A stretch of DNA of 64,000 bases from Plumapathes pennacea (taxonomy: Eukaryota; Cnidaria; Anthozoa; Antipatharia; Myriopathidae). Below, in pieces: positions 10,679-59,600 of this stretch. Made by a program: the position numbers and the translations under genes. The DNA lies in assembly GCA_964036295.1 (NCBI GenBank), contig OZ038464.1:363501-427500 (forward strand), written 5' to 3'. A model generated the notes under the pieces. The model was not told where the DNA came from, searched no databases, and saw only the letters and a list, made by a program, of their open reading frames with translations. Position 1 is the first letter of the stretch. Every line of letters starts with the position of its first letter.

Positions 10679-10773
10679 GAATAACTCTATTTACTGCACT
10701 GTGAAACACGATCGAGCTTGCTACTGACAACTACTTAAGCGGCCAGGAGCTTCGCGCTTGAGTGGAAAACAAG

Positions 10774-15335: not shown

Positions 15336-17018
15336 GGCCGGAGGTTGAAAATGCCACAACGCAGTAATCAGTGTAACTGATAGCAATGTTTACTGCCCGC
15401 ACAATTTACCCTTTTACACTCGACTTGTGTCACAGGTGCAAAAGTAATCCTGAAAGGAATGCGCATGCGCCGGTGATTTGTCTCAAGTCCCGGATGTTCA
15501 ATTGGATGAAAAGCTTGTGTGTGAGGTTACTAAGCTCTACTTTGTATCTTTCTTATTATGCCAAAAGGACTTTTATTTTCTTGTATATTTGTATTAGCAC
15601 GGTGCCAAACGCGCTGTAAAAAAGAAATAATAAATTCCACCGCCCGCGCGGGTTTTTCGACCCTAAACACATGTAAAGCGATTGTCAGGGGGGTTTCGTG
15701 GGCTTTTTGACAATTTCAGGCATATTTTGTCGAGTGTATCTGTGTGAAATGTTTTACACAAAAACACTCCCACGCTACGCGTTTAAATGAACTTCAACTC
15801 GTGTTTTCGCTTTGTCTGTGAAAAAGCACAGGTAATCTGCATACACAGCTTTCCCCATGGAACGAGTGTTTGGTGCAATGGAAGATAGCAATTAAAGTGG
15901 TTTAAAGGGATCATTACTAGACCTTAAGTTCCATTAACCACAGCGATGTAGTTTGTTGATGTCAAGTTTGGAAGTCTCTTGCTGTGCTTGATCCAGCAGG
16001 TGCATTTTTCTTGATTCTATCTCAATTTTTGTTTTCACAACTCGATCGCGTTTTATATATCCAGATTGCTCACGGAGATTAAGCGGAGAAATTGACACAT
16101 TTTTAAGCGTATTTACTAAAGAAAGCGTTTAAAGGCTCGGCAGAATAGAAAACCAGCCTAAAAAACACGTTTAAATGTTTTAACATTAGTATTTAAAAAA
16201 ATACTAGAATGGCCAACTTTCTTAATGCGTCCAAGGTTATTTACTCTGGTGGGCGATATTTTAGTCAAAATATTTTCAGCTCGGCAAAGTCATGAAACGT
16301 CCATTATGGCAGAATTATTCATGATGGACACTAGGAAAACACCAATCTGAACAATAACAAGGTTTAAAATGTCAGTGCTGGCTCCAATTTGCTTTTTGCA
16401 AGCAAATTGTGCTACTTCGCTAATCGTTTAAATTGATTTTTATGCCTTTTGAATGGAGTTCTGAAGTAGAACCAGATTTCTCTTTTCTAGTCTTAGTCGA
16501 TTTGTTTTCGTTCTGTAAGAGCATTTTGAACAATAAGGTGGAGAAATCAAAGCACAAGAATCGTAAGAAGACAAGCAGTAGTTACGTTGATGCACAAAGC
16601 AACAGCTATACAGCGGAAATCATTAATCTCAAAGGGAACGCCAGGTGTCTGAATATGGGGGAGGGAAAATCGAAAACAAATCCCCTGCTATCATCAACAG
16701 CGGGAAAGTGGCACAAGAAAAAACAGCAGACTATTGCTTTTCTATTTCTGCTCCTTAGAAAGGCGCGAATTAATTTTTTGTTGATAAACACGCGAAATGA
16801 TTTTTCTTAAAAACGCGCGCGAAACAATTTTTCGTATGAGAAACGAGCGGAATTTGTTTCTCCTTTCCTTTAGCATCTCATACAGCTATAAATTATTTTC
16901 TTAAAGTTTCTTGCAAAGGTACGGGCGCTGAACTAACACGCTCAAATTCTCCTTACAATGCACGAGAAGACATTGTAGGTTACATAAAGAGAATGTGTAG
17001 TTTGATCAGTTGCCCACT
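15336..17018. other. AT-rich intergenic sequence
   Basis: Upstream side of the minus-strand GPCR. No convincing gene or repeat was recognised; the 125-codon frame at 16433-16810 is low-complexity and lysine-rich, without a domain. Confidence 0.5.
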
Positions 17019-19603: not shown

Positions 19604-20884
19604 CTACTTACAGCCGCATTCTTTTACCACTAAGTCGTTGATCCTTTTACTCACAAATTGCGGCTTCTGATGCAGATCGGAGTGTTGGGATAACACAATT
19701 TTGGCTGGTGAAAAACGCACAGCGACGCAGCATATCCGCTTGTGGCCAAACGTTGCTACGACGCGGCCGTGCCTGGTGGTCGAAGTGCTACAGGATCCAG
19801 TGCATCTGTAGATGTTAAGTGTATCGGGGAGTACAATCCCCGGTATTTGTAGGTCTGTTGCATTCACTATCATGTCGACCCGCTGACAGGGTTGAATTTG
19901 CTTCTGCTGCTGTTGACGAGTCGTATTTGCTTTACCAATTGTTCTTGGAAGCCGTCTGTGTAAGAACCTTGAGACAGACTTCTGAGATGCCTTTTCTGCC
20001 ATATCATAGGTGAAGAGAAAGCGGTCGTTAATTGAGCTTGATTAAACAGAGCAAGCACTTAAGTCACCGTGACTATAAGGGTTGGGTGAACCATAGAAAT
20101 CATTTGTAAAAGGAACGAAAAAGAAAATTTTGTAATCTAATTTACGACTTGCTTGTTTATGTGTGTCTGCATGTCTAGGAAATCCGTAATCTATAGTTCG
20201 TGACGTTCTATTGCTTTTTTGCAGCAACATAAACCAATTAAACTTGCCTCTTTACTTCACTTTCATAAGCTGGATGGAAATTAAGCCCAGAGAACCTCCA
20301 GCCCGCTTTGAGATGTAAATTTTGAACATTCGGTGTGACCACTCGAATAAAAGCTCTCGATGAGTACATCCTAATAACAGTGTTCACTTCCAACTCCTGA
20401 ACTGTCAAATGAAACCTAAAGATCTGACTACTCTGAAAATGAAAATTCTCATCGTAGTGTTCACTTTGTTGTTAAGCGGACGTCGCGTGTTTCATTTAAT
20501 TTTGGCAAAAAACAAGGCGGTGAAACGGTTAGGGAGTTAGGAAAACGGCGCTGAATAGAATCCTACACATATGACATCCTCCACGGCAAAGTTGTGATGA
20601 AAAATAAGTATGCTGGGACGAAAGAGCGAGAACTTACTTTTTTCGTGATGTATGCCATTTTGAAGCTTGACGTCTGTCGGCATGGACTGTACACCAATCT
20701 TTTCCTTGATTGATCTCCTAGATTGATGCGAAATTGCCTCCGATGAATCTTCATTACTTGGGAAGATCATTTTGAAGTTTTTCGCGTCACTTACGCGAGT
20801 GTTTCCTTCGTTAGGGCTGGGCTTAGCTGCTGCGAAGACCAACACCCCTAGAAATACCATGCCAACCGGATTGAGGATTGCCAT
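19604..20884 (-). CDS. TGF-beta superfamily ligand A, divergent, mini-prodomain
   Basis: Two exons, 20884-20638 and 19995-19604, joined at a phase-1 GT-AG intron; 212 residues. Exon 1 encodes a signal peptide (MAILNPVGMVFLGVLVFAAA) and a leader of about 60 residues. Exon 2 adds a basic stretch with an RLPR furin-like site, then a cystine knot. All seven superfamily cysteines are in order: CQR, CTGSC, CC and the final CGCK. The body is unusual: the Trp-rich finger 1 and the NHA helix word of BMP/Nodal proteins are missing, so this is the most diverged of the four ligands here. A normal precursor would have 250 or more prodomain residues; only about 100 are present and the 640-bp intron shows no further exon. 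Secreted signalling role is inferred from the fold. Confidence 0.78.
20325..20478 (-). repeat. 89-bp minisatellite, copy 3 (intron of ligand A)
   Basis: Inverse-oriented unit and a half: GTGTGACCACTCGAATAAAA, then CACTTCCAACTCCTGAACTG and TCAAATGAAACCTAAAG. Confidence 0.8.
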
Positions 20885-20950
20885 TGTAGTTCGTCTCAGA
20901 GCTCCTGCCGACGTGTTTGTCAATGTGGGTAAGTGTTTGAGTTCAATTAT

Positions 20951-20964
20951 CTTATATATATATA
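20951..20964 (-). promoter_or_regulatory. TATA-like box of ligand A
   Basis: TATATATATATA-type sequence about 70-80 bases upstream of the ligand A start codon. Confidence 0.4.
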
Positions 20965-23629
20965 CAACTCGAGCAGCCCATAATCAGAAAAATCAACTGA
21001 GTTAAGAATGGCTTTAATCATAAGAACATTTATCTTGGCAAATCAGGCTGTGTGAGAATAGAAGGTTTGGTCCATCAAAGGATTGAATAACATTTTAGAA
21101 GCATAGACCTTTCTCGTGTGAAAAAATAACAGGATTTAGTATGAAACTTTTTTAATCTACAATTTCGTGGTGATTTAATCTAAGCCGGCTCGGTGTGTTT
21201 CCAGCGGTTTCAGCAGAACAAACGGTCATAGTGGGTATTGACGTGAACAATCAACTAATCCTTAAAGATCTGCGTGAAAAATGTTATCAGCACGAAAGAT
21301 TGCAAACCGAGACTTAGAGATATCTTGACATTTTGACCAACTGCACAAGGTTAGCGACTTTCGCAAAGTTCATTTGGGGCGGAAACTGAAAAAGCGGCCT
21401 TAGCATCATCACGCGATCGACTTGCCTCTTCCATTGGCACTAGAAAATAATCGTAAATTTTGGGAGCTCTAGCAAGCAACGCCGGGCCTCGGAGTTTGCA
21501 CTTCAAAAGTTGTAAATGTCATTACGTTCGCTAAATGTCCCAAAAGTCAATGTGGCCTTCCACTGCCATCAGCGATGCAAGTGAAATTGTTGTTGTCGAC
21601 TCGAGGTCTCGTTGCATTCCTTTTCTTAAATTTGACACAAAATCACAAAGACATTAGTAAAACCGGCGGTATGGAAAATCTCCTTAAGTTTCTGCTCAAT
21701 GTTAAGCTTCTCATATTTTATAAAAGGTCTTAGTTGAATGAATAAGCCGATAATCTATCGGACAAAGGCCAAGTATTAGTTTTTCTATCAGTGGCTTGTT
21801 ATTCTACAGAGAACTCATGCAAGCTGGCAAAGACAAAAGAAATACTACGGAATTAAAAGACCTGCACGCCATGCAAAGAAAAATAAAAATGTAGACAGTT
21901 TTCAGTCGAATTTTTTTTCTTTGGTTGTTGTTCTTGTTTCACGGCTTAGTAGATCCGGTATCTCCTCTCCAGAGTACTCGAATGTAACAGCAACGTTTAA
22001 ATTGTTCGCACCCGTTACTGGACTCTTCCCTTCTCGCAAGGGGAACATCTGACTTGCTACGCATAGTGTCTGGTTTGTTCTACTTGTAAACGCACAACAC
22101 ACGCAACACAGCAATGAAGAAACGAAAAATAAACAACACCCGTCACGTCCTTAAGGGACCACACAAGTTTCATCCCCATTACATTGAACTCGACAACACT
22201 CGACTTGGTCGTGAAATAATAACCCGAGTCACCAAACGAGGAGGGTTTTTTAGAGCATTGCGGATCATTGTTTCTGGTTGCTGTTTTACTCGTAGGGCGC
22301 GAGTGGATATTTTGGCGGTCCTGTTTATGCACGCTTCTGTGCCAGTAAAATAACAAATCCAAAATCATTTACTGTTAATGTTACTGTCCATTTTCTTTGT
22401 TCTGTTCCTAAGATTGAGTTAATCTGTACGGTAAACGTTGATTGATCACATTAACACTGTCTCGGATTGGCGTGCAAAAGCTTGAAGGGTCACACTATAT
22501 CTGTGTCGGTAGTTTTTTTCCAAGACCTTAGTTTTTAAGGTTTTGGAATGCAATCCCACGATTCAAAAGGTTAAATAAGCATAATATCTAAACTTTTCTA
22601 CACGAAATCGTTACATGTGCAAGCGTTTATCTATACATGTTTGACCTTTGGTCTTTAAATTACCTTTAATCTTAATGGTATGTTTATTGCAATTGTTACC
22701 TTGACATTCGTGACTGCATTTTACAGCTTTTTTGGTGCACTCGTTGGAACTGAAATTTTACAACTTTTTGGGTGCACTCGTTGGAAATTAGTTCGGTTAC
22801 CTTCCTTGATATTTTTGGCTATAAATCTCTACTTGAGAGATCTGCATTTTGTTAAAAAAAAAAAAAAAAGAAACAAATTTAGCAAGCAATTTTTTTCGGT
22901 ATTTAGGTTAAAGCTGGTAGGAGGTTAAGTTATGGAAACTGTTCTAATTCGGGCAGAAAGCGCGTGATATTCCGATCACGTAGCAGCTAAATGGAGTCGG
23001 TGGCCCCCGTTGTGTTTATATAAAATCGAATCTGGTACACAAAAGGAATCTTTGTAGTGAATTTTACAAACATTTTTAGACTGGAAATCGCGCGATCGCA
23101 TTACCTTAAGCTGACTATTCGAGCCCTTTGTCGCAGCAAGTGACCGCTCACAACGTTACATGTAAGAATACGCAGTTTAAAACTAGTTCTAAATGCTAAC
23201 ATTCACTTGTGTTCTTACGTATGCCAAGTTCGGTTAAAATCAATAAATAGAGATGTGGACTTTTTGGCGTTGGTCTTGCTGGACCACCCGTGCGGAGACA
23301 CGAATCGAAAAGTTGCCGAGATTTTATTTAAACCATCTGTGGTGGTCCAGACGTGGTCCAGACTATGTGGTTATTAAATTGGGCATCCGGTGATTTGGTG
23401 GTATTACTGTAAAATGTGGTATGAAAGTTGGATCACAGACCACAAAACTTTAGGTACTTGTTACCCGCCGTGAGACTCAAGCCAGGTTTAGTATTTTTGC
23501 TGTCAGCACTTCCAGTTTTATGAGTGCTTTTAACAGTTTAGCGTAAAGCGATACACGTCAAATGATTTCTCAACACTTAGACACTGAAAGATAAGGCTGA
23601 TTGAAACGAGTAAATTAAGCTCAAGCGAC

Positions 23630-23725
23630 CGGTGCACACGGTTAAATTTGAGAAGCAAGGGCAAACGCAAGGCAAGAGAATAGAAACTTTTCCATTCTCT
23701 TGCGCTTGCTTTACCATGTAAACCA
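23630..23725. repeat. CAAGCGCAAGC-type hairpin repeat, copy 3
   Basis: AAGCAAGGGCAAACGCAAGG ... GAATAG pairs with TTCTCTTGCGCTTGCTT, ending GTAAACCAGCC, the same terminus as the copy at 9487. Confidence 0.65.
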
Positions 23726-25046
23726 GCCAATATACATATAAAGCGTGACCGGCAGTCAAATGAAATGATGGTATCAGGATGGTTCCTGTTATCCTGCGTG
23801 GGTGAGCGTTTCTTTTGACCGTGCAAAAAGTCGATGACTGCCGAAAAGTCGAGTTGCGGTCATCAATTCTCTGCAAGGTCAAAAGGAACGCCTGCCATGC
23901 ACGGTGCTTTAATCTGCGAGATAAAACCTGAGTATAATGTGTCAGCGTGTATGGTTAATGTGGATAAAAAGCTTAACGATTTAAGCGTTAGTCGGAGCAC
24001 GATTCTAATGGAAGTTATCAATGAGTACATTCTGTTGATTTTGAGTGACTAAAAGTTAAACTTGTAACCACTGCAGTGGACACAAAAACCATTGCAATGG
24101 ACACAAAGGTCAACGTTTTGATTCTTATGAGAAACTAGACTGGGGTTGCCAGTGAGCTCGCGGCCGGTTAGTTGGGTCGAGAGCAGAATAAACTAAAATG
24201 AAAAGCAAGGACAAGAGCGGAAGACCAGGAGACTTCCAGTTTCTCACAGTATAGAGAACTTGGCTTTTGACACCTTGCTTAAATGAAACCTGATTAAACT
24301 ATAAATTTATCATTACAACACTCATACACTTGGTTCTTAAAGGTTGAGCGACTCTGCATTTTGAGCTTAGAAGCGAAACGGTTACCCACCGAGTAAATCT
24401 GAGTAATGCGTGACTTGTCTTTGACAGTTTGACCTCGAGGCCACGATTAATCCAGCCTTCGCTTCAATACTAGTCTGTCTTGTTTTTTAACTGAATGCGT
24501 TTCACTTCTATAGGCTTTCGAGTATTCGTGCTTTGTAACAAATATAAAATTGAAAGCGATGAATGTAACGCGAGACATGTTTAAAATATTATTGCGGTTT
24601 TGTTCACAGTGTGTTCAGTCCATTTGCGACTTCATTTCTGGTATACAATGACCATTGCAAAACAAAGGCTACATGATCGAATGAAAGAAACATTTCAACA
24701 GGCAATGTACGATAAGCAGAAGAATCGTATGAGGCAACAGATGTCATGAACAGAGTAAAGCATAAATCGCCATTGTTTTGCGGCTAAAGCTCATCGTAGC
24801 TTTGGTTTCCGTTTTCGGCCTGTTTTCTTCCCAGAAGTATTTCGTGTCGCCACAGAAAGTTTCGTCGGGACTAAATATTTAGCGGCGACAGAGATATTTG
24901 CAATCCCCCAGCGGTATCTGATCAAACGGCGTGGGAGCTAGTCTACAGTGTTCGAATGATCTATACAGCGAGGTACGGCAGCACAACAGAGCTATTTGAG
25001 GCTTCAATTTAAGTGTCACGGCCAACGGTTTCTTTGCGTCCTCAGT

Positions 25047-25172
25047 GTTTTTTTTTTTTTTTTTTTTTTTTTTCAATTCAGAGACGGGACCGCGATTTTA
25101 CGTGGCCATCCGAGCCACGAGTAGAGAGCTTAAACGAACAGCGCTAACCGCTCGGCTACCACAACTCTAAAT
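25047..25172 (-). mobile_element. tRNA-derived SINE with poly(A) tail
   Basis: Read on the minus strand, a perfect A box (TAGCCGAGCGG followed by TTAGCGC) at about 25147-25165 is followed by a short body and about 26 A residues (plus-strand T run at 25047-25072). The B box is degenerate. No target duplication was found. Confidence 0.6.
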
Positions 25173-25939
25173 TGAAAGCTGTTCATGTTCAAAATCCCAG
25201 ACTTCAAAGGTCAATAGGTTAAACTAACCATTTTAATTCTTAACATAGAACTGAGTTACTCCTACGCATAAGCCGCGCGTATCATTTTTTTAACAAGATC
25301 AGTCATACATCTTTTTTTCTGGAGTTGCTGGGAGTATCTGCATTATGAGCTCAGAAAAAAAAGGGTAAATGTTTAACTCTCGAAGAGGACGGTGCTTATC
25401 ACTAACTAGGCTCCACACCGCGTTACTAATCTGTCATTCTGTCTTTCGCGGCTATTTGGTCTACAGCATATCCTGTAGCCTTCTAGTTGTATGATCAAGA
25501 GCGGTCGGCCACTGTTGGATTAGAAACAGACTTAACGCGGAAAAGATTTCAGAAAATGGATTGGCGGTATAATAATGACTGTTTATTGAAACTGTTAGCT
25601 AATTACAACTAGCATAATGAAATACAGTAATTAGCACAAAAACATAAAACCAGAAGTCACTCTCTAAATGTAACAAATTCTCCAGATCTCTTCGTGAGAC
25701 ATGTTTTCTTATTTCCATATAATAGTGTGTTATGGGACACCATATAAAAACAAATATTTGTCTCGGTAATTTGTTGAAACTATAAAACTGAATCGAAACT
25801 CGTACACCGCCGAATGCTGTTTCACTCCAAGACACGTGCAAAGGATCACGGGCTTTCTATTTTGGTTACCCGTAAGTCAACTGGGTCCGAAATCCCGATC
25901 ACGTGGTCGGCGTTCGGGCTGAAAATGTACTACAGTTAA

Positions 25940-27557
<1,618 letters not shown>

Positions 27558-27639
27558 CTCTCTGCTCCTGAAGTCTCGTCAAATGGAAGTTGCTACCGGA
27601 CTCCGACTAAACTGATACTCAGCTCAATGATAGAAAATC

Positions 27640-27645
27640 TTTATA
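27640..27645 (-). promoter_or_regulatory. TATA box of ligand B
   Basis: GCTATAAAG on the minus strand, about 85 bases upstream of the ligand B start codon. Confidence 0.45.
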
Positions 27646-28506
27646 GCAGAGCATAGTGAAATCCAAGACAGTTGGAACGAGGAATTGCGGTTAAGTTTGT
27701 GATGGTGTTTAGTGTTGAAACTACGTAAAGAACGTTAATCCTTGAGCAGAGCTTTTTGCAGCACGGACAGTAATTGGTGTGGGTTTGAGCTCAGGCCATC
27801 AGCCGAGTGACACACATTATAGAACATCGTTATCTCTCTTCGAGCTGGCGTGTTGCGTTTGACGGATGGGTCAACCGAAGCGTCATTTCTGGTGATATGT
27901 AAAAATGTTTGCACGGCTTTGTCAAGGCGTTAAATCTCCTTATCCACTGCAGGAGATTAAACGCAATGTTGCAAATAAATCTGTGGAAGCAGCCGGCACG
28001 TGCGGGGCTCGCTGCACGTAATGCACAACATGAAAAACCGCACTAAAAGAGCCTGTTTGTAGCACCGATAAGGCGTTACTATTGACAACTGAATCAATAT
28101 GCTGTATCAGGGCGCGACGAAAGCCGTATCCCCCAGGGCTACAAGTTTCTTTCCCCACATCTTGTTGGGAATAGCTATTTGGGCTTGTGAGTCATGGCTA
28201 GAGCTTGCTCTTGGGCTAGCTGCGAATTTATTTGTTTTTGTCGCGCCTATAATACCCCACCTATTGCTCACATCTCAGAAGGAGAAGACGCTATTTGATC
28301 CCAGGTAGAGCTCTAAGATAGACCAGTGGAATTCGGATGTGCGTACATACAAATCAGTGATGAGTTAGATTTCCTTGTCCCCCGAGGAGTGGACCGGGAA
28401 AAGTCCTTGAACTTCACGCGACTCATCAGTTTTGAGGAAACTGCGGTTTAGTTTCTTGAAGTGGGTCTTACTTTGGTTCAAGAACCCTCATATTCCTCAA
28501 TGCTAT

Positions 28507-28720
28507 AGGGGTGGCGAATGGTACCTAGAAAATCGCGGGTCTCGGAAACTTTTGATACGATCTCAAATTCAAATGTCGGAAGCCGTCGTGATGAGTCAAA
28601 GTCTCGTTTTTGTATTTCGTTTTTGTTTTTCGGATTTGGCTAAAATTGCTAAAGACTCGGTCTCAGATTTTCAAACAAGGGTCTCAGCGAGTCTCGGTTT
28701 TAGTGCCATTTGCCACCCCT
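28507..28720. mobile_element. hAT-type MITE, 214 bp
   Basis: Terminal inverted repeats AGGGGTGGCGAATGG and CCATTTGCCACCCCT resemble hAT ends. The flanks AATGCTAT and AATGCTGA form an 8-bp duplication with two mismatches, as expected for hAT. The interior is T-rich, without a coding frame for transposase. Confidence 0.75.
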
Positions 28721-28778
28721 AATGCTGACTAAAATCATGAATTTCACTAAACAACAAAATGAGCACTACTAGCAATGT

Positions 28779-29310
28779 ACTCGGCGAGAGCTTTCATTTA
28801 AGTGGTCACACCTTTAGGTTTCATTTGACAGTTCAGGAGCTGGAAGTGAACACTGCTATTAGAATGTACTCATTAAGAGCTTTCATTTGAGTGGTCACAC
28901 CTTTAGGTTTCATTTGACAGTTCAGGAGCTGGAAGTGAACACTGCTATTAGAATGTACTCATTAAGAGCTTTCATTTGAGTGGTCACACCTTGAGGTTTC
29001 ATTTGACAGTTCAGGAGCTGGAAGTGAACACTGCTATTAGAATGTACTCATTAAGAGCTTTCATTTGAGTGGTCACACCTTTAGGTTTCATTTGACAGTT
29101 CAGGAGCTGGAAGTGAACACTGCTATTAGAATGTACTCATTAAGAGCTTTCATTTGAGTGGTCACACCTTTAGGTTTTTATCGACAGTTCAGGAGTTGGA
29201 AGTGACAGAACACTGCTGTTGGAATGTACTCATCGAGAACTTTCATTATTTTAGTGAGTGGTCACACCGTTAACAGGTTTCGTTTGACAGTCCAGGAGAT
29301 TCAAGTGCTT
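28779..29310 (+). repeat. 89-bp minisatellite array, copy 4 (largest plus-strand array)
   Basis: Nearly six units with exact 89-base spacing of CATTTGAGTGGTCACACC at 28884, 28973, 29062 and 29151. The middle units are almost identical; the outer units decay. Confidence 0.97.
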
Positions 29311-29629
29311 TTCCTACGTTGAGTCAAAGTCGGTTTTGGTAGAAAAAGGATCGATGACGCATCCGAAAAATTTCATTGCTTGGTATGAAGAAGTGAAACA
29401 AATGATTCTCCGGCATCAGTCTTTTAATTGAATTGATACAAAAAATACATTAAAATCAACTGTCTTATTCGAAGACTGCAATATTTGGTGCCATGACACA
29501 TACTAACAAATGGAATAGAAGCCAGTCAAGGCAACGTGCATCGCTCTCTGGATAGTAATTCTCCCAAGAGTTTACAAGAAAACGTCTGAGTGATAAAGTG
29601 AGAATTTATCAAATGCCTTCTCTGATGAA

Positions 29630-30010
29630 AAACTAAAGCATAAGAGATATGTGTCTGGTGAAAACGAGCACAAGAGATAAACCAGCGACGCAAGCATAAG
29701 AGATATGCGTCAAGTGAAAACGAGCAACGCAAACACACACACACAAAAGAAAAATCACTTTATTTAAGTCTCGCGATGTATTTAGCACTGCCGTGCTAAT
29801 TGGGGAGACTTGAAATGCAGAAACGAATTATTATAAACTGAACACAAATTTGTTAAGAATCCCAACTGGTCGGAGGCTAACCAGTTGGCTATTTACATAG
29901 TGTGGCCGAGGATTTGAACTCAGGGCTACCGTGTTACAAATTCAGCTAGTGGTCAGAGCGGCACAAGAGATATGCGTCAAGTTGAAACGAGCGACGCAGA
30001 CAAATAAACG
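29630..30010. repeat. CAAGCGCAAGC-type repeat, copy 4, interrupted by SINE
   Basis: Words such as AAGCATAAGAGATATGCGTC and GTGAAAACGAGCAACGCAA occur at 29630-29745 and again at 29961-30000. The truncated SINE and some unrelated sequence lie between. Confidence 0.7.
29825..29960 (-). mobile_element. 5'-truncated copy of the Ser-like SINE
   Basis: Minus-strand sequence matches the body of the 1290-1505 SINE, including the second TTCAAATCCTCGGCCAC word and the CCAACTGG/CCAGTTGG hairpin. The tRNA-like head is missing. Confidence 0.85.
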
Positions 30011-30063
30011 CGAGGATTAGAGTTGGGAAAAGACTCGGTGTTTATTGTTGGACTTGTGCTTTA

Positions 30064-30282
30064 GGGCACGTTCCATTTTTTATCTATTCCGGAACAGGAA
30101 TAGCGATACTGATTGCTATATTTAGCTTTGGAGCTGAATTATGTCGAGATGTATCGAGAGCTGTTTAAGATGCCAGCGTGAAGGTTTTGAAAGCACTCCC
30201 GAAAACAATTCCCCCGGAACAAGCAAAACTTTGGATCATTTTAGCTATTCCTATACCAGAATACGGTCAATCGAACGCGCCC
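30064..30282. mobile_element. Harbinger-like MITE, copy 1
   Basis: Begins GGGCACGTTCC and ends with the inverse GAACGCGCCC, flanked on both sides by TTA, a 3-bp target typical of PIF/Harbinger. A related copy is at 43540-43758; both share GGAGCTGAATTATGTCGAGA and ATTCCCCC-GAACAAGCAAAAC. Confidence 0.65.
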
Positions 30283-31159
30283 TTAGTCCAGCCTTTTTTC
30301 GCTGTGAAACAAGGGTAACTCCCGTCCGCTGGCGCCGCTCGTAAAACAGACCCTTAAACATGACTACGAGATATATGTGCTACAGTTTTTGCAATTTGTC
30401 TCTCTTTTTAATCCGTTCTTCGGTGGAAGAAATGAGTTCTTCTTGTGCAGTTTGGTTTGAACAGCCACAGACGTCATGAGAAAGTGTACCAGCAATTATC
30501 ACTGTGGTCTCACAAAGGATTGCTCGGATTTCTAATCTTCCAGCAGAGACAAGCTGGTACGCTCTCAAGTACTCTGTGCATGCAGTAGGCATGAGATTGT
30601 GTTCAGCTCTCTGAATTAATAACTGTTTACTTTGTTTTTGACAATCAGCTTGTGAAGTGCCGGACGTGAGAAGGAAGTGAACAAACGCTCAGTCACGGTG
30701 CATCAGCAGATTTTTGAGCATCACTGCAAACCGACCCAATAAAGGTATGTGTAGTATGGAATGCTATCCTGCAATGGTGCATTGGGCGCGTGCTGTTGAT
30801 CAACAAAGATGGCATAAGCAAACAAACAAATAAACACAAACATGGTGTGATTTTCGAGACAAGCGTGCACCTGTCGAAATCGGCCCGGTTCCGTTTCCGT
30901 TTGCGCAAACTGCTGCATCTTTGCTGTATTTGCTCGTATTATTCCACTCAGCCGAATGAGCTGAGCAGAAGTAACGCCGTTTAAGCTGTATCTGTTACGT
31001 AAATCCTTGCTAACACCTCCTATTAGATTTAAAAGAAATACAAGCTCAGAGCCTCGGACCGCAAAGTGCCCGATTTTACCGGGTTACTCAGCGTTGACTC
31101 ATGGCCGTGTATTTCTCTGTCGTACCAATCACATTAAAAACAGCTCCGACCAATCAACA

Positions 31160-31525
31160 CGAACACTGCCATCAGACAGTGCTCGCTCAGTGGTCACACC
31201 TTAACTCCGTTCATTTGAAATTTCAGAAGCTGAAGGTTTTCTAGGTTTTCAATGAAAGGTTCCAAGATACGAAAAACATTCAACTTCGCTCAACAACAAC
31301 TTGAATGTGGCAAATGGTATGAACTCATTTAGAGTTTTCATTTGAGTCAGGTTACACCTTTAGAACACCACTGCAATGCTATATTAGAATGTACTCATTA
31401 TTTGCACACCTTTAGTTTCATTTGACACTTCAGGAGTGAGAAGTGAACACTGCTGTTAGAATGTACTCATTATTTGAGTGATCACAGCATAGGTTTCATT
31501 TGGCAGTTCTGAAGTTGAAACGCTC
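31160..31525 (+). repeat. 89-bp minisatellite, degenerate copy 5
   Basis: Decayed units: AGTGGTCACACCTTAA near 31190, TTTGAGTCAGGTTACACC near 31343, AATGTACTCATTATTTG near 31391 and 31463. Confidence 0.7.
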
Positions 31526-32701
31526 TTTAAGTTGAGTAGAAAAGGTCAACGACTGGCTCTCTGGCGGTTGAAATCATGCTTGTGCTTTCATCACGGTGTC
31601 GTCTCCTAATCGAGGACGCCAAAACACAAGTGAAGGCAATTGAGTATAACAAGATTTCCATCTGCCCTAATTGTGCGGCAACCCAGATTTCCCATTTAGC
31701 TCCAGTGACTCTTTCCGGCGGGCTTAGTCGTCTAATCTGCTGTCTCTTCTGGAACAACACTTGAACGTTGTGGGAGACAAAGCGAACTGCTCGAGTCACG
31801 TCCAGACCTCAAAGAGCTGTTCTCGAATGAATTCTGCGACGTAGAGATAGCGTAGTCAGTTGTGAAGAGCCTTGTAAGCCAGAGACTTATCTTCAGGTAG
31901 TTTTACACCAGACAAATTCGTCGCTTTCTCAGCTGATTGTACGTGTGATGGCATAAATTACAATTAGAGATTAAATGAGATTGCAAGCATATCTTCATGT
32001 CCAGACAGTCAGAATTAAGAGCCTTAATTTCGCTGAAGAGCTCCCCGCCTGTTTAAACACAAGAATTTACTTCCTCACCACGCAACCAAGCACAGGACCC
32101 GGAAAATGGAAACATTCCAAAACTTGAAAAACTTCCGGAGTTCCAAAATACCACTCAGCAGGCCTTCCAGCCTGCCCTAAAAACAAATTGTTGAGAATTT
32201 CGTTTAGTCCGCGGTATCCGTTGTTTAAAACAAAGCATCAGAGATAAAAAAAAAATCGCTCCGGGAAAAAGAGCGTAATGGCGACGAACACTGACCATAG
32301 TCCACGGTATCTACGGGCGCGTGCCCACCCCACGGGGGACTTTAGCCAAGAACACAACACTCTTCTCAGTGCCAAAAATCCGCGCGCAACTCGCTTAGGA
32401 ACGCGACTTTTCCGAACTTCTCAATCAAGGGACGAGTTTTAGAACCTCTGAAATTTCATTTGGCCATCTTCTTTTACGGGTGCCCCCCCGGTGGGGAACA
32501 GAACTGCTGTTCTGTTCACACGCACACAATGTAACAAAAGACTAGCCTGTTGTTTCTTGTCAGATTGATGGCAGATTTTACCAGCCCTGGGCCGTTGGCT
32601 AGCCAACTATTAAGCCCTTTGTCAGTGTAAGATTGTACAAATAACTGAAACACTGAAAGTAATAATTGCACCATGAGACTAATCCTTATTTTTTTTAGTT
32701 C

Positions 32702-32707
32702 TTTATT
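32702..32707 (-). terminator. Poly(A) signal of SF3A2
   Basis: AATAAA on the minus strand, about 75 nt after the SF3A2 stop codon. Confidence 0.6.
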
Positions 32708-32781
32708 TTCACACAAACCACAACACATAGCAGATATGACAAGAAAGTCTGGACATGTTGATGGCATAGCAGCCAAGCCTC

Positions 32782-35595
32782 TCACTGAGGCGCAAACGGG
32801 TTGAGGGGATTGGAGGCAGGGATGTTCCGTGGGGGAGGGGGTGCCAGGCCTGGTGGCATAAGCTGTTGTTGTTGACGCTGTTTCTGTTGTTGTTGTTGTT
32901 GAATCTGCTGTGGTGTCAGTCTGAAGTGGAACTGAAGGAAAAACTAAAAACAAGGACAGACACAAGTCAAAAATAAGTAACAAAATCAAACAAACCAAAA
33001 ATAAACAGAAATAAATATAGCATCCCTTGCTTTCCATTCATCATGTTTTATTTTTTTTAAATCAGACCAATCTAATACTTTTTGTGGACCAAGGAAGACA
33101 AACCTGATTGAACTGTCACTTCTCACAACTATAACTCATTCAAGTCTAGAAGGAAGGTTAGGAGAATCTGTCTTACTTGTTTTGTGTCCTTGTTCCAGTG
33201 AGTCCAGAACTTGCTGTCTTCTTTATCAACTTCTCGACTTGGGATCTATAAGTAAAGAATAACGCTGAAAGTCTGTATATAAACATAAATCAAGTTGCTG
33301 TAAACACCAAATCAGTGAAAAATGTATATATTTTACCCTTGCTATTGTACCTTACAGTAAATATTATTGTAGACTATTTCTGATGCTCAAATTAAACTCA
33401 AAGAACTTCCTAAACAGAAACAGAAACACTACATTAGATTGTACACACTGGCATATTTTACTCACATTTTGCATTTATCTTATCAAGCACACTTGGAACA
33501 GTGATAAGCAACTAAAAAAAAACACTGCAGTCCCCTAGGAGTAGATTACCGCCTTCTTTTACTGGTAGTTATATAATAGTGTGCATATAAGGGGATGCGT
33601 TACCTTGAATGATATGGTCTCATATGGCTCGGCAGCAAATAACAGGTATTGCCAAGTCTTGTCTGGAGGTTCGATACGCTGTTCATATGCCGACATGAAT
33701 CTGTGTCTAGGGGTGATACCTTCTGCTATTTCAGGATAGTCGACCTGTGCACAAACAAACAAACTCAGTAAATAGTAAACAATAACAACAACAAAAAAGA
33801 GAGATAGAAATGACATGAAACCTCTCCCGAACCAACACAACAATATTACGGTACATGAGTGTCCATCTAGAGAGCCCTGTACTGACAGCAAAACAACACA
33901 ATGTCTCTGCACCTGGAACAACAAGCTGTGCTGGCTTGTTTCCGGATCTCGTTGTTTTGTTACTGAAAACAGATACATGATCAAGGTAAATTTTCTCCCT
34001 TTCATACTGTAGACAGTAAGGACAAACTGGCATTATCAACCATTATGACATCACTTCAATTAAGGAAGTGAAACTGTTGATACGTTACAGTTCTGTGATC
34101 ATCACCCTGCAGTTTATTCAAAGCTTCACATTGCATATTGCATATTCACATTGTATATTGAGACCAGCAAAATCTAATCTACTGAAAGAACATTAATAAT
34201 ATATTCAAAGTGGCATAGCACAATATACTGTGTATTTAGATTGTCTTTGAAAAGCCTCTTTGGGGAAAGTCAATAAAGTATGTATGTACCTTTGTATCCT
34301 GGCCGTCCAATCTTCACAAACTTTTTAAGTGATACTCGTGGCTTTTCCTGTCCCGAGAATGGCATCAAAAAGGAACATTTAGTAGAATGTCAAGCAATTT
34401 CATGGCAAATAAATTGAACCCAGGGGTTTGAACAATACAGTAGGTTGGTTGTGATCATCTGGGTTAGAGGAAGGCTTTTGTTGGTGACTGATGTCTTGAC
34501 TACCTGAGTGGAAGTCACCTTCATAGTCAAGTGAAGATGTTGCATCAGTGTCACGTTCTTTATTGCAAAGGAAAAGTGCAGTGCACACAAGAATCACGAC
34601 ACTCACCAGAGCTGGCTGGGCTGGCGCGTCCTTAGCTTCCTTAGCAGCTCGTCGAGCCCTGTCAGCAATGATGCATACTTAATTAGATTCTCTCTGGACA
34701 CAGCTTAGACTGAAAATATTTCTGTATAACTTGGCTTTCGGTGCCTTGCTAACTGAACTATCAATTCTTACACATCATCTATACAGTGCCTTCTTGAATG
34801 CATGAAAGGGCAAACAGTCAGTTTATCTAACACTGATCGCAGTCAATTTTCTCTTTTTGCTTTCTAAGCAGCTGAGAGAAGTTTGGTGAGGAGAAGTTGG
34901 AACTTCTTAAACCTCAAAATTCTCCCAACATAAATCACCCATTTTCTTCATATACGAGGTTAGGAGATCTTAAACTGACTTACAAGTTTGACTGATGTTT
35001 CTTTCCTTGAGTATGGGCCAAGTAGCTCCCCTGAAAATGGATAAAAAGAACAAAATTTGTATTCTTCTGCTTTGCTCACTGATGAAGTGCCTAAATACCC
35101 ACAACACACCAGCATTATTATGGTTCATGGATGCTGTAAATAATTCTCATAGGACACATGCAAGTAAAAGTGATCGTATGACCTCAGCTTCACCTGGTAT
35201 GACTCACCTCATTATTGTGTAGCGTTAAACAAAGTTTACATTCATAAGATCCCAAGTGGTTCTTCATAAAATAAGGATCCTGCGAAAAAGGAAAAACACT
35301 TCATATTTGTCTATGAACTCGATTATTAGTGAATGACCAATTTCCAAGCCGCAAGTTGTCTTCTGAATCTGATCAAAGTAATGTTTCTCCCTTCATTATC
35401 CACTCACAAATACATAGTGCAGTAAGGAGAAGCTAGCATCTGATGCTGTGCCATGCAGGCATGCCGTACCTTGTTCAAGTCGATAGTTTCAAGAGCGAGT
35501 TGACGTAATCTTTCTCGCCGATCTCTGTTGGACTCAGATGATGACGCTACCCCGCCTGAGCCGGTCTTACCTCCGGCTCGGTGCTGGAAATCCAT
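32782..35595 (-). CDS. SF3A2: Splicing factor 3A subunit 2
   Basis: Nine exons on the minus strand: 35595-35470, 35279-35208, 35030-34984, 34658-34607, 34347-34290, 33962-33913, 33744-33604, 33245-33177, 32943-32782; all phases agree, 258 residues. SF3A2 is part of the U2 snRNP SF3a complex that contacts the branch-site region. The N-terminus (MDFQHRAGGKTGSGGV) and PRHRFMSAYEQRIEPPD are nearly identical to the animal family. The U1-like C2H2 zinc finger uses Cys56, Cys59, His72 and His78. The last exon ends with a Gln-rich run and a short proline tail, so the long proline-rich repeat tail of the vertebrate protein is absent, giving a length closer to yeast Prp11. It is a housekeeping gene sitting inside the ligand cluster, divergent from ligand C. 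Confidence 0.97.
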
Positions 35596-36380
35596 TCTAT
35601 CTAACTTACTATATCACGCAAGATTCAAACTAAACTTCACATGCGACGAACTCCAAACAACATGGCGGACACGTCCCAGCATGCATTGCAGAATGTCTGG
35701 TAGGACTCAGTCTTGCTCGACTCCAGTCATGAAGACGAAGCTTTTTCCGTTCGCTAACCGCTGGGGGCATTGCGAGGGCTCAAGGCTGGGTCTCTCTCTC
35801 TCTCTTTTTTTTTTTTTTTTTTTTTTTAGATAATTCCTCTGGATTTTGATTACGTACGTTCTTTTTATACTGTATCACTACACCATGTCACAGATTTAAA
35901 ACCAGCCTTTGTCACAATATAATGCATGGAATTACTCAGAAGTTAATTATAAATATATCTAAAATTTAGTCTGCGTGAGCGTATCGAAGACCTAACCGAG
36001 TTCGAAACGTCGAACAACGCAATCATTACGGCGTTAGGCATATCCGCACAAATATTTGGTTGACACATGCGTTTTGCATCAACGAGTTCTAATGGGCAGT
36101 AGCATGCCATCGTTTTCCACTTCACAGCCGCTATTGGCTCGCCACGCAACGGACCTGGCGAGCCAATAACGGCAACGAGGGAGACTAAAGCAATCTATGC
36201 GGCGCTCCGACTTGGCATCGTTGCGGTGGCCCCGTCGGCATCGTGCGCCCGGAGGCGTAACATAAACCGATGCACATTGCCCGAGGCTTGTTCTTAGATT
36301 ACACACCACAGCGCTTAGCTCTCCCAAGGTCACACAGGTCGAGAGCTTTTGAGCGCGTTGGAACGCCGCAAGCGAAAGAA
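35596..36380. other. Divergent promoter region of SF3A2 and ligand C
   Basis: Contains a YY1-type ACATGGCGGAC word (35660) near SF3A2, a CT/T tract (35795-35827), and GC-richer sequence before ligand C. No gene is seen. Confidence 0.55.
35660..35670 (+). promoter_or_regulatory. YY1-like motif near the SF3A2 start
   Basis: ACATGGCGGAC, 65 bases upstream of the SF3A2 ATG. A matching motif lies upstream of MFAP1. Confidence 0.4.
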
Positions 36381-37312
36381 ATGGCGAGTTCTATAGCGCT
36401 GTATGTGTTCCTACTATGTGTACAAGTCGGGTTGATCACTTCAAATGCGCAAAATATGCAGGATAACAAGCACAGGTTCACGAAGGTAATATTTGATAAC
36501 ACTGTGCGTCACACGCGAGTACGCCAGGAGAACAGCGCAGAGGAAAGCAAGACCGCTTTTTTATCGATGGCAGGAAAAGCGTTTAGGCTCAAGAGTGAGT
36601 ATTATCTGCAGTTAATTATTCTCTACAACCTTTTTCCCGTGTTCTTCTGTGTTGGGGACTTTCTGACCTCGATGACTTGTGGGTAAGCCAGAAGAGAACC
36701 AGAATCCTTTGCGGGCGCATGGGGGCAAACAATCCAGCTTGGCGAGTTTTACTTGTGGCAGGGCTTCTCGGGTGATGATTGGCTGACAAAAGGCTAGATT
36801 GTTCTCAACAGTTAGGCAGCAACTACAGCTGAAATGATAGTTCCCACAAAACGCTAGATCATACCAAGCGTGTTTTGAGCATTCTGTACTTCATTAAACG
36901 GCACCACACTACAAACAGTCACATGATATTGTCATGGCGACAATCTTTTACAGATGACGACACGGAGAGCCCACATGATCATACAACCGCATCACATCAC
37001 GTGCGAGCTCGCGAATGTCAGCGTGCGGATTTGGTGGTAGATTTGAGAGACTTGGGCTGGGATGACTGGATCCTTACGCCATTTTTGGTCAACGTGAAGA
37101 AGTGCGTTGGAGTTTGCGCACTTTCTCTGCAGAATGCCACCAACCACGCCATAGTACAGGCTGCCGCGCATGCGCTGAGGCCGAGCGAGCCTGGGCCCTC
37201 CTGCGTGCCTACGAAACTCGCCCCACTTCCCGCCCTATATATCGACCACAGTGGTAAGCCAGTTCTTAAGAACTTCCAGAACATGGTGGTGACGGAGTGC
37301 GGCTGCCGATAA
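36381..37312 (+). CDS. TGF-beta superfamily ligand C, mini-prodomain, lacks interchain cysteine
   Basis: Two exons, 36381-36594 and 36954-37312, phase-1 intron; 190 residues. The ATG at 36381 begins the signal peptide (MASSIALYVFLLCVQVGLI); an in-frame ATG at 36270 would bury it. The leader has about 50 residues, then a short His-rich stretch and the knot with ECQRADLVVDLRDLGWDDW, KKCVGVC, NATNHAIVQ, PSCVPTKL and final VTECGCR. The superfamily CC pair is SC here: the first cysteine, which makes the interchain disulfide in most ligands, is serine, as in GDF9 and BMP15. Six cysteines remain for the knot. NAT in finger 1 is a glycosylation site. A VRAR stretch before the first knot cysteine is only a weak cleavage candidate. 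Non-covalent dimers or heterodimers with a neighbouring ligand are inferred. Confidence 0.85.
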
Positions 37313-38571
37313 CACGGGGTGCGACTATGAAGAACATGTGCCAACGGCCAGTCTGTGATTTTTAGATTTCTGTGTAATGTATTGCTGCATGTCCGGCGCT
37401 CGAGGCGTCAGCTTTTGATCGTCACGTGACTTATGGATTTTTAGCCTTTCACTGCTTGGGGCGAGTTCGATTCTTTCGACTTCGAAATCTTTTAACTCTT
37501 AAACTGTCCGAGAAAAACTAAAGATGTGGCCACTCAAATGAAAAGCAAATGAGTACATTGTAATAACAGCGTTCACTTCCAACTTCTGAACGATCAAATA
37601 AAAGCTCTGAATGTGTACATTCGAATATCAGGGTTCAATTCCAGCCTCTGAACTTTTAAATGAAGGCTAAAGGTGTGACCAGGTGTAAAGCTGAAACTTT
37701 TATGGAGACTAAAAATTACGCAGCACTGTTATCTCTGTGCAATAAGGGAAAGGAGGGGACGTCGTTTTAATAATTATTTCAGCATTCAGAGTTTACCAGT
37801 TAGTTTACTTTACAGCTATTCTCCCATCCACTCGTAGAATGTGTATGAATGATATAGTGAGAATTGACAGCTGAATCAGTTTTCAGACGCCTCCTTATTG
37901 TGTTCCTTATTTCCGTGATTATTTATCTGGTTAACCTCTTCCTTCTACTGTTCTCTTTTTAAAGAATATACCAGAGCAAAGAAAGTTTGGACGGAGCAGA
38001 TTCCTCTTTTTCTCACTTGAACTGACTGAAAGAACGGTTGAATATTAGGTAACTATCTAAGCAGGAACAATAGAAGTTGGCATTGCGTATGCACTTGTGA
38101 AGAGTTTTTCATTCTGGTCATTATCTTGCCCTACTAAGTTATAATAGACATCATAAATTGACGCCATATTTAAATAAATCTATACCATTTATTTTCTATA
38201 TTACAAGTCTGAAGAGCATCATAGTGCTTTATATAGAATACACTTTCTACTATTTTTTATGAGCTCCGCCGTGGATCTCTGTTATAACGACGAGATATGA
38301 TATATAATGTTGACGGACCATCAAAAGTTCTATGAAGTCGGTTTACAGTTTACAGCAGACTGCTTCCTACACATTGGTTTGAGTTCTTGGAATTCGAACT
38401 ACTTACTGGCGTTTTAGTGTTGTTATTCCAAAAACGAGCAGTTCTCTAACTAGCCTAACAGAGTTTACAGAAATATCGAGTCTGTCACGGACTGTGACGT
38501 CATCTACCCGAAATCCTGTTCGGCCCCTGGTCTCTCTGACTATGTAAGTCCCGGATCGTTCCCGGCGTGCA
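37313..38571. other. Convergent intergenic region of ligands C and D
   Basis: Contains the inverse 89-bp repeat at 37510-37690 and a relic repeat with TGTATGAATGATATAGTGAG near 37842. Candidate poly(A) words are AATAAA at 37597 (+) for C and a minus-strand AATAAA near 38187 for D. Confidence 0.5.
37510..37690 (-). repeat. 89-bp minisatellite, copy 6
   Basis: Two diverged inverse units: GTGGCCACTCAAATGAAAAG, then TTCACTTCCAACTTCTGAAC, then AATGTGTACATTCGAATATC. Confidence 0.75.
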
Positions 38572-40920
38572 TCAGTGGCACCCACACTTGTTGACGACCA
38601 TGTTTAGGAACTTTTTAAGGACAACGTTGTTGTCATCATCCAGGTACAGAATCGTAATGGGGGAGAGAGACACAGGAACACAGCACGGTTCTTCCACTTG
38701 CTCCGTGTGCACGTGTACAAGCGACTGGATGATCGCGTGATTGGTTGTGGACGATTCACGGGGGATAGGGTTTGTGCATGCGCCACCACATCTGTACGCG
38801 TTGTATCCGTGCGGTGCGATGATAAAGTTGTCCATGCCGATATCGCTGAAGCTCACGTACATTGCCGACCTCTTGCAGCCGTCGCGCACATCCGGGTCAT
38901 CTGTGACGTCACTTTCGGGATGACGACGACGCCTCCTCTTGAGGGGCTTCCGCTGACCCATGCCTCGAAGGCCTGCAAAATATTTGTTAAAGTTAGTCGA
39001 GGAAAAGGCCCGATTGTTTACGCACACAAACTGAACCATTGCATTTGACATGGAATAGAACTAGCTGTGCCAAGTGCTCTGGTTTGCTGTCATTATCCAG
39101 AACGCCATTGTTTTACTTTCTTGGTTCACTCACCTGGAAGGGTGGCCACGTGATTTTCATAATCAGTATAGACAACTAGCCAAGGGTACAATTCAGGACT
39201 CAGGCCATTATCTTCTGGCAGATGGATCCCCCAGCTTTTTTGTGGGTTTTGTAGCCATTCTCGGAAGAGAGACGTAATATTAAATTCAGTCCAGCCTGAG
39301 TGACCAAGCGGAAGGGTCTGGCGTGATATCACGTGTCCACTTGTGACGTCATAGGCTGGGATGCTCCCAGGCTTACGTGCGAAGAGGTAGATTTCGGCCG
39401 CGCGGATTGTCGTGTAAGGGGAGATTGAGGATATGTTGAAGTGGTATTCCTGGTTTTCAAATTCTGTGAATAGAGAAGAGAGTGATGTCAGAAACAGAGG
39501 TAAAACATTTCATTGGCCAAGAGAAGAAAGCCTCTACTCTGACTGGTCGCTCATCTCTGACACGACAAACATGTTCACCATGACAATGCGTTTATCCAAC
39601 AGCGCATGCGTAAGCCAATGTGAGCCGGCTATTGTGCTGGAATTATTTCTATATTATTTGTACGGGAACAGAGTTTAAAACCGTTCTCTGCCAAACGTGA
39701 ATTTGAGTCAAGTAGGCTAGACTCGAATGATTTCATTAGAATTCAGTGTGAATTGTTAAATGGAATGGCATGAACAGCGAAACATGACAGTGAAAAAAAC
39801 CTCCCAATTATTATCAGGTTCCGCGACAAAAATCAAAGTTGAATCCCGTGCCTTTGAATTTACTCTTTTTTGTTGTTGTTGGTTGTCTATAGTTTTCTGT
39901 CATGACAGTGCTGAAGTTTGCAAGCTTTAATGGACTTTGCGCGACCTTTTGACTCGCTCAGTTGGGCAGCTTTGCGTCCAGCGGCTCTGTAAGTCCGTCA
40001 ACACGTTTGATCAAAGGACTGCTGAGACATAACAGCCCTGCTTACGCAAAATTCTGCCCTGTGTCGAAAACAAACAAACCGGTCACGGAACGGATAAAAA
40101 TCTGTACAACTTGGGCTGGAAACTTCTTCAGTAGGGAAACTATTTTACTACAAACCGCTGTTTACTGCACGATAAGTCGCCGGACAACCTTGAATATAGT
40201 ATTCGGGGCGATTGAAACTGCCTTTTATCCTGCATTCACCTATAAAACGCATGGTTGGTAAAACAAGATTTATCCTTATTAGTCGCGACTACCTCTAAGG
40301 CGATGGGTAACTTGGAATTTGAATGTTACTTTTGGATTGTTTTAAACAGGGGTCAGTATTTTGCTGTGCTGTGACTCTACTGACCTTTAGTGAACATCGG
40401 TGAACGCTTTTAGTACCGTATGACGAAATGTGGGGCACAGCTGGCTTTATCCCAAAACATTAATTGAATGACAGAATTTCTTCAGTTTCTACAGAATTGA
40501 AACTGAATAAGTGGAACTAGCAAGGTCTGTATTTGGTGGTGTTTTCTGGCAAATCCTCCGTTCCAAATTCATTTTCTTCGTCACACATAAACATCACTTA
40601 ATAGCATAGTTCTAGGTTATATAAAAAGAGATTTTTACAAAATGTGTGAGTTCGTTCACAAAACGGAAACACTTACTTTGCGCGTGGAAGAACTTCAGCA
40701 CCTTGGCAGAGCCCCTGGCTTCTTCGTCCTCGTGTTCTAATTTCCTGTAGATGTCCATGATAAAAGGCGGCGTGTTGGACTTGTGATACAGCTCCGTCCT
40801 CTTCAACAAATCCTTGGAGTCCTCTCGAGGTGCTTTCTTTGCGGCCCTGTTTAGACGGAAAGGGGTCGCGCCAACCAAGCAAGCCACGGTGAACACTACG
40901 ACAAGTTTTAAAACAGCCAT
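38572..40920 (-). CDS. TGF-beta superfamily ligand D, full-length Nodal/BMP-like precursor
   Basis: Three exons, 40920-40677, 39463-39134 and 38972-38572, with both introns in phase 1; 324 residues. Exon 1: signal peptide (MAVLKLVVVFTVACLVGA) and the N-terminal prodomain helix with PPFIMDIYRKL, a BMP/Nodal prodomain signature. Exon 2: prodomain body, with WTEFNITSLFREWLQ and an NIT and NIS glycosylation site. Exon 3: polybasic furin site (KRRRRR) and mature ligand with CKRSAMYVSFSDIG, APHGYNAYRCGGAC, TNPIPRE, TTNHAIIQSL, EEPCCVPV and final NKCGCH. The words GYNAYRC, NP and TNHAIIQSL closely match Nodal; a BMP or ADMP-like identity cannot be excluded without a tree. All seven cysteines are present. 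It acts as a secreted dimer on Ser/Thr kinase receptors if typical for the family. Confidence 0.92.
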
Positions 40921-58400: not shown

Positions 58401-59014
58401 CTTTTTCATGTGACGTGTTTAGTGTTGAAAGTTTTTACATTCGAAAGAAACGCCAGCTGCAAATCGGGTCTATCAAACATTGAGACAGAGCATGCAGGTA
58501 ATTTCTAACATTTAAAGCTCCCTCGTTAATACAGCAATCCAGAAGTCCAACATCTTACTGTGTTGTTTCAGGTTTGTGTTGACTATTACTTTCGTGATCT
58601 GGTATTCCAGTATGGATCCCTTGTATTCAAGTGAGGTTATAAAATATTCATGATTGGGTCATTCTATTTGAAGAACTTAAATTAATCGTGAAGTGCTCAC
58701 TTCGAACAAGACTTTATGATGCTTCTTGTACGTATGACTTTAAATTTACCGACACTTAAAGTCGTAATTTATAAACTGCCGAGTTTTCAATTCTCCGGGG
58801 CCATTCAAGAAAACAATGTATCCTTCATTTACAGTGAGAACTAATTGTTTAATCAAACTTGAGCGACCGAGACTATTGATAAACGAAAGACTGATGCAAA
58901 TATGCAACGCATCACGATTCGCAATGGCTGTTGAGATCCATTGTACGCATGCGCAGTGATCAACGATCACAGACAAAAGAAACGTATGTAGAACTTACAG
59001 AGATTCCACTCGCG

Positions 59015-59600
59015 AAGTGTCAAATGAAATCTGGAGGGGCAACCCGTCACTCGAATGAAAGCTTTCAATCAGTCAGTTATCGTAGCAGTGTTCGCCTCCA
59101 ACTCCTGAACTGTCAAATGAAACCTAAAGGTGTGACCACTCATATGAAAGCTCTCAATGAGTACATTCTAACAGCAGTATTCACTTCAAACTCCTGAATT
59201 GTCAAATGAAACCTAAAGGTGTGACCACTCATATGAAAGCTCTCAATGAGTACATTCTAACAGCAGTGTTCACTTCCAACTCCTGAACTGTCAAATGAAA
59301 CCTAAAGGTGTGACCACTCAAATGAAAGCTCTCAATGAGTACATTCTAACAGCAGTGTTCACTTCAAACTCCTGAACTGTCAAATGAAACCTAAAGGTGT
59401 CACCACTCATATGAAAGCTCTCAATGAGTACATTCTAACAGCAGTATTCACTTCCAACTCCTGAATTGTCAAATGAAACCTAAAGGTGTGACCACTCAAA
59501 TGAAAGCTCTGATAGAGTACATTCTGAGAGCAATGTTCACTTCCAACTCCTGAACCTAAAAATGTGACCATTCAAATGAGTACATTTTGATAGAAGTGTT
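59015..59600 (-). repeat. 89-bp minisatellite array, copy 8 (largest minus-strand array)
   Basis: More than six inverse units. GTGACCACTC recurs at 59132, 59221 and 59310 with exact 89-base spacing. Units differ at few positions, for example CATATGAAAG against CAAATGAAAG. Confidence 0.97.

Follow-up and report, generated by a model that had tools for sequence, protein, structure and literature searches.

In the window, by which we mean the whole 64,000-nt stretch of DNA that was analysed, the ligand genes A, B and C are probably intact BMP-type genes of the TGF-beta family that have lost the folded prodomain, and their products would be secreted in a non-latent form and fold autonomously or with general help in the ER. 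Prodomains of the TGF-beta family are held to be necessary for folding, dimer assembly and latency. The precursor would then consist of a signal peptide, some 65–98 leader residues and the cystine-knot domain. The prodomain arm, which has an exon of its own in the neighbouring gene D, appears to be missing from A, B and C by every sequence test made.

Gene models and mature domains of ligands A to D

The models of the four genes were rebuilt base by base from the window DNA. Ligand A, on the minus strand, consists of exon 1 (20638..20884), which encodes a hydrophobic, signal-peptide-like start and a leader without straitjacket match and ends in phase 1, and exon 2 (19604..19995), which encodes a 36-AA linker and a 7-Cys TGF-beta domain with a shortened stretch between the third and fourth cysteines (C3–C4; PF00019, E = 2.6e-11). 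For ligand B (25940-27557, minus strand), exon 1 (27398..27557) gives a signal-peptide-like start and a short leader and has a TATA box and a TCAGTT initiator-like site upstream; exon 2 (25940..26343) adds a 32-AA linker without RXXR and a 7-Cys BMP-type domain (PF00019, E = 1e-28). Ligand C lies on the plus strand. Its exon 1 (36381..36594) again encodes a signal-peptide-like start and a short leader, with RHTR as the sole RXXR, and its exon 2 (36954..37312) a 21-AA linker and a 6-Cys BMP-type domain in which one cysteine of the CC pair is missing (PSCVP; PF00019, E = 1.1e-26). Ligand D has three exons on the minus strand: exon 1 (40677..40920) with a signal-peptide-like start and a lasso/alpha-2-like straitjacket remnant (TPPFIMDIYRKL), the 330-bp exon 2 (39134..39463) with the prodomain arm and a phase-1 intron on each side, and exon 3 (38572..38972) with an RRRRR furin-type site and a 7-Cys BMP-type domain (PF00019, E = 1.6e-32).

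All five introns of A–D have GT–AG borders and are in phase 1. A, B and C are each built of two exons and one phase-1 intron (642, 1054 and 359 bp, respectively), and the precursors amount to 212, 187 and 190 AA vs. 324 AA for D; the rebuilt models agree with the lengths and phase-1 joins given for A–C in the first-pass annotation of this DNA. Its claim that the middle exon of D codes for the body of the prodomain between phase-1 introns was borne out by Pfam, which recovered this exon from an in-place translation with stops written as X (PF00688, E = 3.3e-8). Among A–D, PF00688 (TGFb_propeptide) matched D only; the match spans residues 43–163, from late in exon 1 through most of the middle exon. 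Hydropathy peaks early in all four proteins, the highest-scoring 12-residue windows beginning at residues 5–7, which on this measure fits signal peptides.

Scores against PF00019 (TGF_beta) were 44.6 bits for A, 100.6 for B, 94 for C and 112.8 for D, all above the curated cut-off of 27 bits that is asked of a TGF-beta superfamily ligand. The domain holds seven cysteines in A, B, D and a further ligand, E, described below, and six in C, where the absent cysteine of the CC pair is read as the interchain one. The best PDB matches were BMP7 for D, BMP6 and then BMP7 for B, and a BMP2/BMP6 chimera and then BMP7 for C. Among the best 60 of 65 matches each for B and C there was no GDNF, neurturin, artemin or persephin, and GDF15 was matched by C at 1.5e-14. 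A matched BMP-type chains weakly (best E = 0.0066), with none of GDF15, GDNF, neurturin, artemin or persephin among its 24 PDB matches. In the prokaryote and viral collections no homologues were confirmed. With their BMP-type domains kept, B and C are the likelier agonists.

The third and fourth cysteines are separated by 19 residues in A, compared with 30 in D and 32 in B. The structure model of A, which is of low confidence (mean pLDDT 55.6), has no helix in the C3–C4 stretch; that of B (mean pLDDT 72.3) has a wrist helix, partly in a low-confidence stretch. Foldseek with the A model returned TGF-beta family folds, with the engineered TGF-beta2 monomers that have no such helix (5tx2, 5tx4, 5tx6 and 8dc0) at ranks 28–31, and this match to the mini-monomer is unspecific since ordinary family members rank higher. 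Engineered mmTGF-beta2 (5TX4) lacks the heel helix according to the available part of PMC11865472, which cites a paper titling the TGF-beta2 monomer a dominant negative. A is likewise short of part of the wrist (‘heel’) helix stretch, but it is natural, is ~11–13 residues shorter than B and D rather than 20, and keeps both CC-pair cysteines. Because the stretch is shortened where the wrist helix should be, our guess is that A could be a modified or antagonistic ligand that blocks signalling. The two tryptophans of the first-finger GW..W motif are absent from A, D and E, and B retains a single one; their absence was considered as a sign of antagonism in A and dropped, as D and E are without them too.

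The prodomain arm in the window and in the genome

A whole-genome search for the TGF-beta domain in the 290-Mb assembly, which by its gene content is that of an animal and in which the window lies at C3:363501-427500, listed 20 domains, a number that is a lower bound. These at least 20 domains comprise A–D, 14 comparators with a long exon, E, and one partial domain accompanied by 5000 N (L024), which was left out of full-domain counts. In the comparators the domain match begins at residue 152–287 of a single open frame, which leaves room for an arm. The separate arm exon of D is an unusual state, as the domain and the region upstream of it lie in one long exon in these 14 genes, and among the arm-bearing ligands D alone has a second phase-1 intron, between the arm and the mature domain. 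The best-scoring acceptor candidate is in phase 1 in 12 of the 14 comparators, that of L023 falling inside the arm; for L016, L019, L022 and L023 the arm boundary used was a lower-scoring phase-1 acceptor picked by eye. An intron in phase 1 ahead of the arm seems to be a frequent feature of the family in this genome. One ligand, at L017:8106-9044, groups strongly with human TGF-beta1 in the mixture-model tree (99/98), and its exon also matches the propeptide (E = 4.6e-8).

The search also revealed E, a fifth short-leader ligand 21.7 Mb from the A–D cluster (C3:22101733-22101952 and 22102643-22102983; L013:7734-8984). It encodes 186 AA in a gene with one phase-1 intron, with a signal-peptide-like start, a leader of ~65 residues and no arm match, and the nearest other TGF-beta domain found (L018) is about 170 kb off.

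The Pfam propeptide was not listed for the minus strand of 19604-29500 and 29400-38500 or for the plus strand of 20000-30000 and 30000-37400. PF00688 is poorly sensitive here, detecting 9 of the 14 comparator ligands of the same genome at E < 1, eight at E < 0.001 and six above the curated cut-off. For this reason weight is placed here on an own-genome arm profile, built from 15 arm regions and evaluated by leave-one-out on six-frame translations of the loci. Fourteen of the 15 arms were recovered, at E-values no worse than 8e-4, and with the tested arm left out the profile confirmed the arm in 13 of the 14 comparators. The one missed, L022, is counted as arm-bearing solely because 153 residues precede its domain match and an RX[KR]R site is present, its arm being detected by neither profile. 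Best matches of the own-genome profile were at E = 0.88 in the region of A, 1.4 in that of B, 0.59 in that of C and 1.9 at the E locus. Over the whole window the D arm came out on top (1.7e-29), followed by D's own mature exon (0.023) and by 10536-10345 (0.11), which is 9 kb from the nearest ligand and far from A–C.

The introns were further searched for exons on the gene strand bounded by AG, with a pyrimidine-rich acceptor, and GT, at least 180 bases long and holding an open phase-1/1 frame of at least 60 codons. In the introns of D this returned two candidates, of which the true arm exon is the longer. The introns of A and C yielded no such exon, and that of B only three nested readings of a His repeat. 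The B intron is mostly an 839-bp trinucleotide array (26387-27225), a dispersed 89-bp repeat has one of its copies in the A intron (20466-20332), and the intron of C has no open frame above 58 codons on the gene strand. The earlier description of these introns as repeat-filled or devoid of a prodomain-like frame holds, with repeats in A and B and no frame above 58 codons in C, and the arm exon that was to be looked for there turned up neither in the introns nor in the flanks searched, whether by Pfam, the own-genome profile or the exon search.

Leaders, start sites and the SF3A2 neighbourhood

Past the assumed ends of the signal peptides, the leaders are 98 (A), 65 (B), 69 (C) and 65 (E) residues long. 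For the straitjacket, a profile was made from five first exons of this genome chosen by motif; in leave-one-out runs all five were recovered, and no more than 1 of 500 shuffles scored as high. The leaders of A and B gave no match to this profile. Exon 1 of D has an alpha-2-like segment that scored only 6.4 bits (1 of 500 shuffles as high), and E has an alpha-1-like segment at 11.1 bits (0 of 500), with arm match absent. A weak match of C, reached by 12 of 500 shuffles and aligned over a stretch that is neither alpha-1 nor alpha-2, was not counted. A common leader homology among A–D was also sought in six pairwise comparisons and not found, the lowest shuffle count being 125 of 1000. The first-pass annotation had described A–C as having exactly the exons that remain when the middle one is taken from D. 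This is right for exon number and phase and fails for content, as the lasso/alpha-2-like segment of D is unmatched in the A–C leaders.

As for cleavage sites, the only RXXR before the domain is RLPR in A and RHTR, about 47 residues before Cys1, in C; D has RRRR, and B and E have no RXXR anywhere before the domain. Two of the 14 comparators (L019 and L021) are also without RXXR in the region used. The leader of B carries three N-glycosylation sequons which, speculatively, might open access to lectin chaperones.

TATA-like boxes were seen 66–88 bp upstream of the ATG in three of the four genes (A, B and D), against a background of 354 of 3454 windows of 110 bp. The box of A is at −80 to −72, and in B TCAGTT follows 30 bases past the start of the TATA box. 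For C neither a TATA-like box nor a TCAGTT-type motif was present within the 260 bp examined; the divergently oriented SF3A2 gene begins ~0.8 kb away from the start of C, which leaves little room for upstream coding exons. Additional 5′ coding exons, named in the earlier annotation as a finding that would speak against the short precursors, are not indicated in the DNA, given the TATA-like boxes of A, B and D and the closeness of SF3A2 to C.

The SF3A2 splicing-factor gene itself lies between B and C on the minus strand, at 33592..35595 when counted from its start codon through the final exon with a strong match (PF16835, E = 3e-22), and a further weak match reaches 33177 (E = 0.034); residues 1–45 of SF3A2 in the PDB were matched at 3.2e-21. 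Going downstream from SF3A2, the first TGF-beta gene encountered is B, on the same strand, a neighbourhood that would be expected of an AMH orthologue, and no other Pfam family was above cut-off in the scanned stretches of the interval between them. In mammals AMH adjoins SF3A2 (available parts of PMC7982541 and PMC10944898), and the orientation of SF3A2 varies among them (PMC7982541, likewise in part). Other AMH neighbours of 19p13.3 were not recognised by eye among the open frames of the window. B was joined to AMH in one of four trees, weakly (mixture model, 28/82), and stood apart from it in the three simpler ones.

Other features of the window include the 89-bp repeat unit, which occurs in tandem arrays and dispersed copies (28766-29307, 59004-59600, 645-865, 20332-20466 and others), two long frames that by eye resemble seven-helix receptors (10762-11796, plus strand, and 14214-15389, minus strand), and open frames at 50632-52378 (plus strand) that presumably resemble MFAP1.

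Origin and possible mode of action of the short-leader ligands

In the trees, B and D were sisters twice, with modest support (84.7/72 and 80.8/39). The mixture-model tree joined A, on a very long branch, to L022 (93/95), a gene with no intron ahead of its domain. On the best mixture-model tree the genes without an arm (A–C and E) require four changes, of which strong branches force only one, and AU tests rejected none of the single clades (p = 0.27 for A–D, 0.18 for A–E and 0.088 for A–C with E). For B vs. D, dN was 0.55 and dS 3.6, which suggests constraint on the domain of this pair; dS was undefined for 14 of 21 pairs. The view that A–C are a full precursor minus one symmetric exon is upheld for the arm. 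It does not carry over to the rest of the prodomain: no straitjacket was matched in the first exons of A–C while part of it is kept in exon 1 of D, so these genes are not simply D minus one exon. As for a D-like precursor of all three, one clade is not rejected, yet the trees demonstrate no single origin and the best needs four changes. One loss from a D-like gene may thus lie behind these ligands; B is the gene for which this is best indicated, and the trees do not show it for A or C. Loss was probably eased by phase-1 introns, which stand before the arm in most members and, in D, also behind it, since the second phase-1 intron makes the arm a removable exon.

Reading A–C as working short-leader genes, we expect them to be transcribed and their products to be secreted without latency. 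Folding would proceed alone or with general ER help, as for GDNF-type precursors, and no normal pro/mature release step would be needed, since B and E have no RXXR before the domain. The earlier statement that such ligands would have to fold by a different route loses some of its force, as pro-domains in the GDNF family usually measure 55–75 residues (available part of PMC8589418) and GDF15 without its propeptide is still secreted (available part of PMC7299427). With signal-peptide ends assumed, the leaders of B (65), C (69) and E (65) fall inside this GDNF-family range and that of A (98) outside it; the leaders of B and E have no RXXR, and the mature domain differs, B and C matching BMPs best and not being of the GDNF type. 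Relative to the BMP5-8 and BMP2-4 class, B, C and D have a like cystine-knot domain, and D also the arm and the furin-type site, whereas arm and straitjacket were not found in A–C, RXXR is absent in B, and C has six cysteines.

A somewhat similar case comes from the ctenophore Mnemiopsis, where MlBmp3 and MlTgf3 have a signal peptide and no SMART propeptide, and MlTgf4 and MlTgf1b likewise a TGF-beta peptide without SMART-detected propeptide (PMC3169577, as far as available). There the propeptide is called missing or highly divergent, and RXXR or a possible variant is present in all (same source, in part). Leader length, intron content and the own-genome profile argue for true absence of the arm in A–C, unlike the second ctenophore alternative. 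In the part of the literature searched, this case and GDF15 surfaced, and no BMP-type ligand set like A–E was found.

As the main alternative, A, B or C might depend on D, whose prodomain, arm and straitjacket together, would act in trans as a chaperone of both subunits of heterodimers in folding and exit from the cell. Prodomains of activin and TGF-beta are able to assist in trans, D sits in the same cluster with arm and furin-type site kept, and the missing CC-pair cysteine of C would suit a non-covalent partner. We nevertheless regard this dependence as unlikely, given that E shares the short-leader architecture and that the nearest other TGF-beta domain found (L018) is about 170 kb from it. 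Still less probable is that the short models are incomplete, with a diverged or distant prodomain exon hidden in the introns or flanks. PF00688 is insensitive enough to allow it, the own-genome profile missed one arm of 15, and intron 1 can span several kb in this genome, the exon 1 candidate of L009 being about 6.4 kb upstream. Against it, none of the three regions gives a hit with the own-genome profile and there is no suitable phase-1/1 exon, on which grounds a hidden arm exon was judged unlikely; moreover, the first exons are signal-peptide-like, A, B and D have TATA-like boxes, and C starts close to SF3A2.

A reading of A, B and C as duplicates in decay that are turning into pseudogenes is very doubtful. 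The lost cysteine of C would be in keeping with decay, as would the incomplete C3–C4 stretch and the very long branch of A, but each of the three has kept its reading frame, its splice sites and six or seven cysteines, although synonymous sites are saturated or undefined vs. D. Just as little probability is given to a division of labour in which D is a trans-chaperone with a removable exon, B and C serve as agonists without latency or as partners in heterodimers, A acts as a natural helix-shortened antagonist, and B marks an ancient SF3A2–AMH linkage.

If A–C are indeed natural BMP-type ligands without arm or straitjacket beside the arm-exon gene D, in a genome that also has conventional relatives, the roles of the prodomain would be separable in this cluster by swaps and co-expression, and the symmetric phase-1 arm exon would offer a concrete path by which a member of the family may lose its prodomain in frame.
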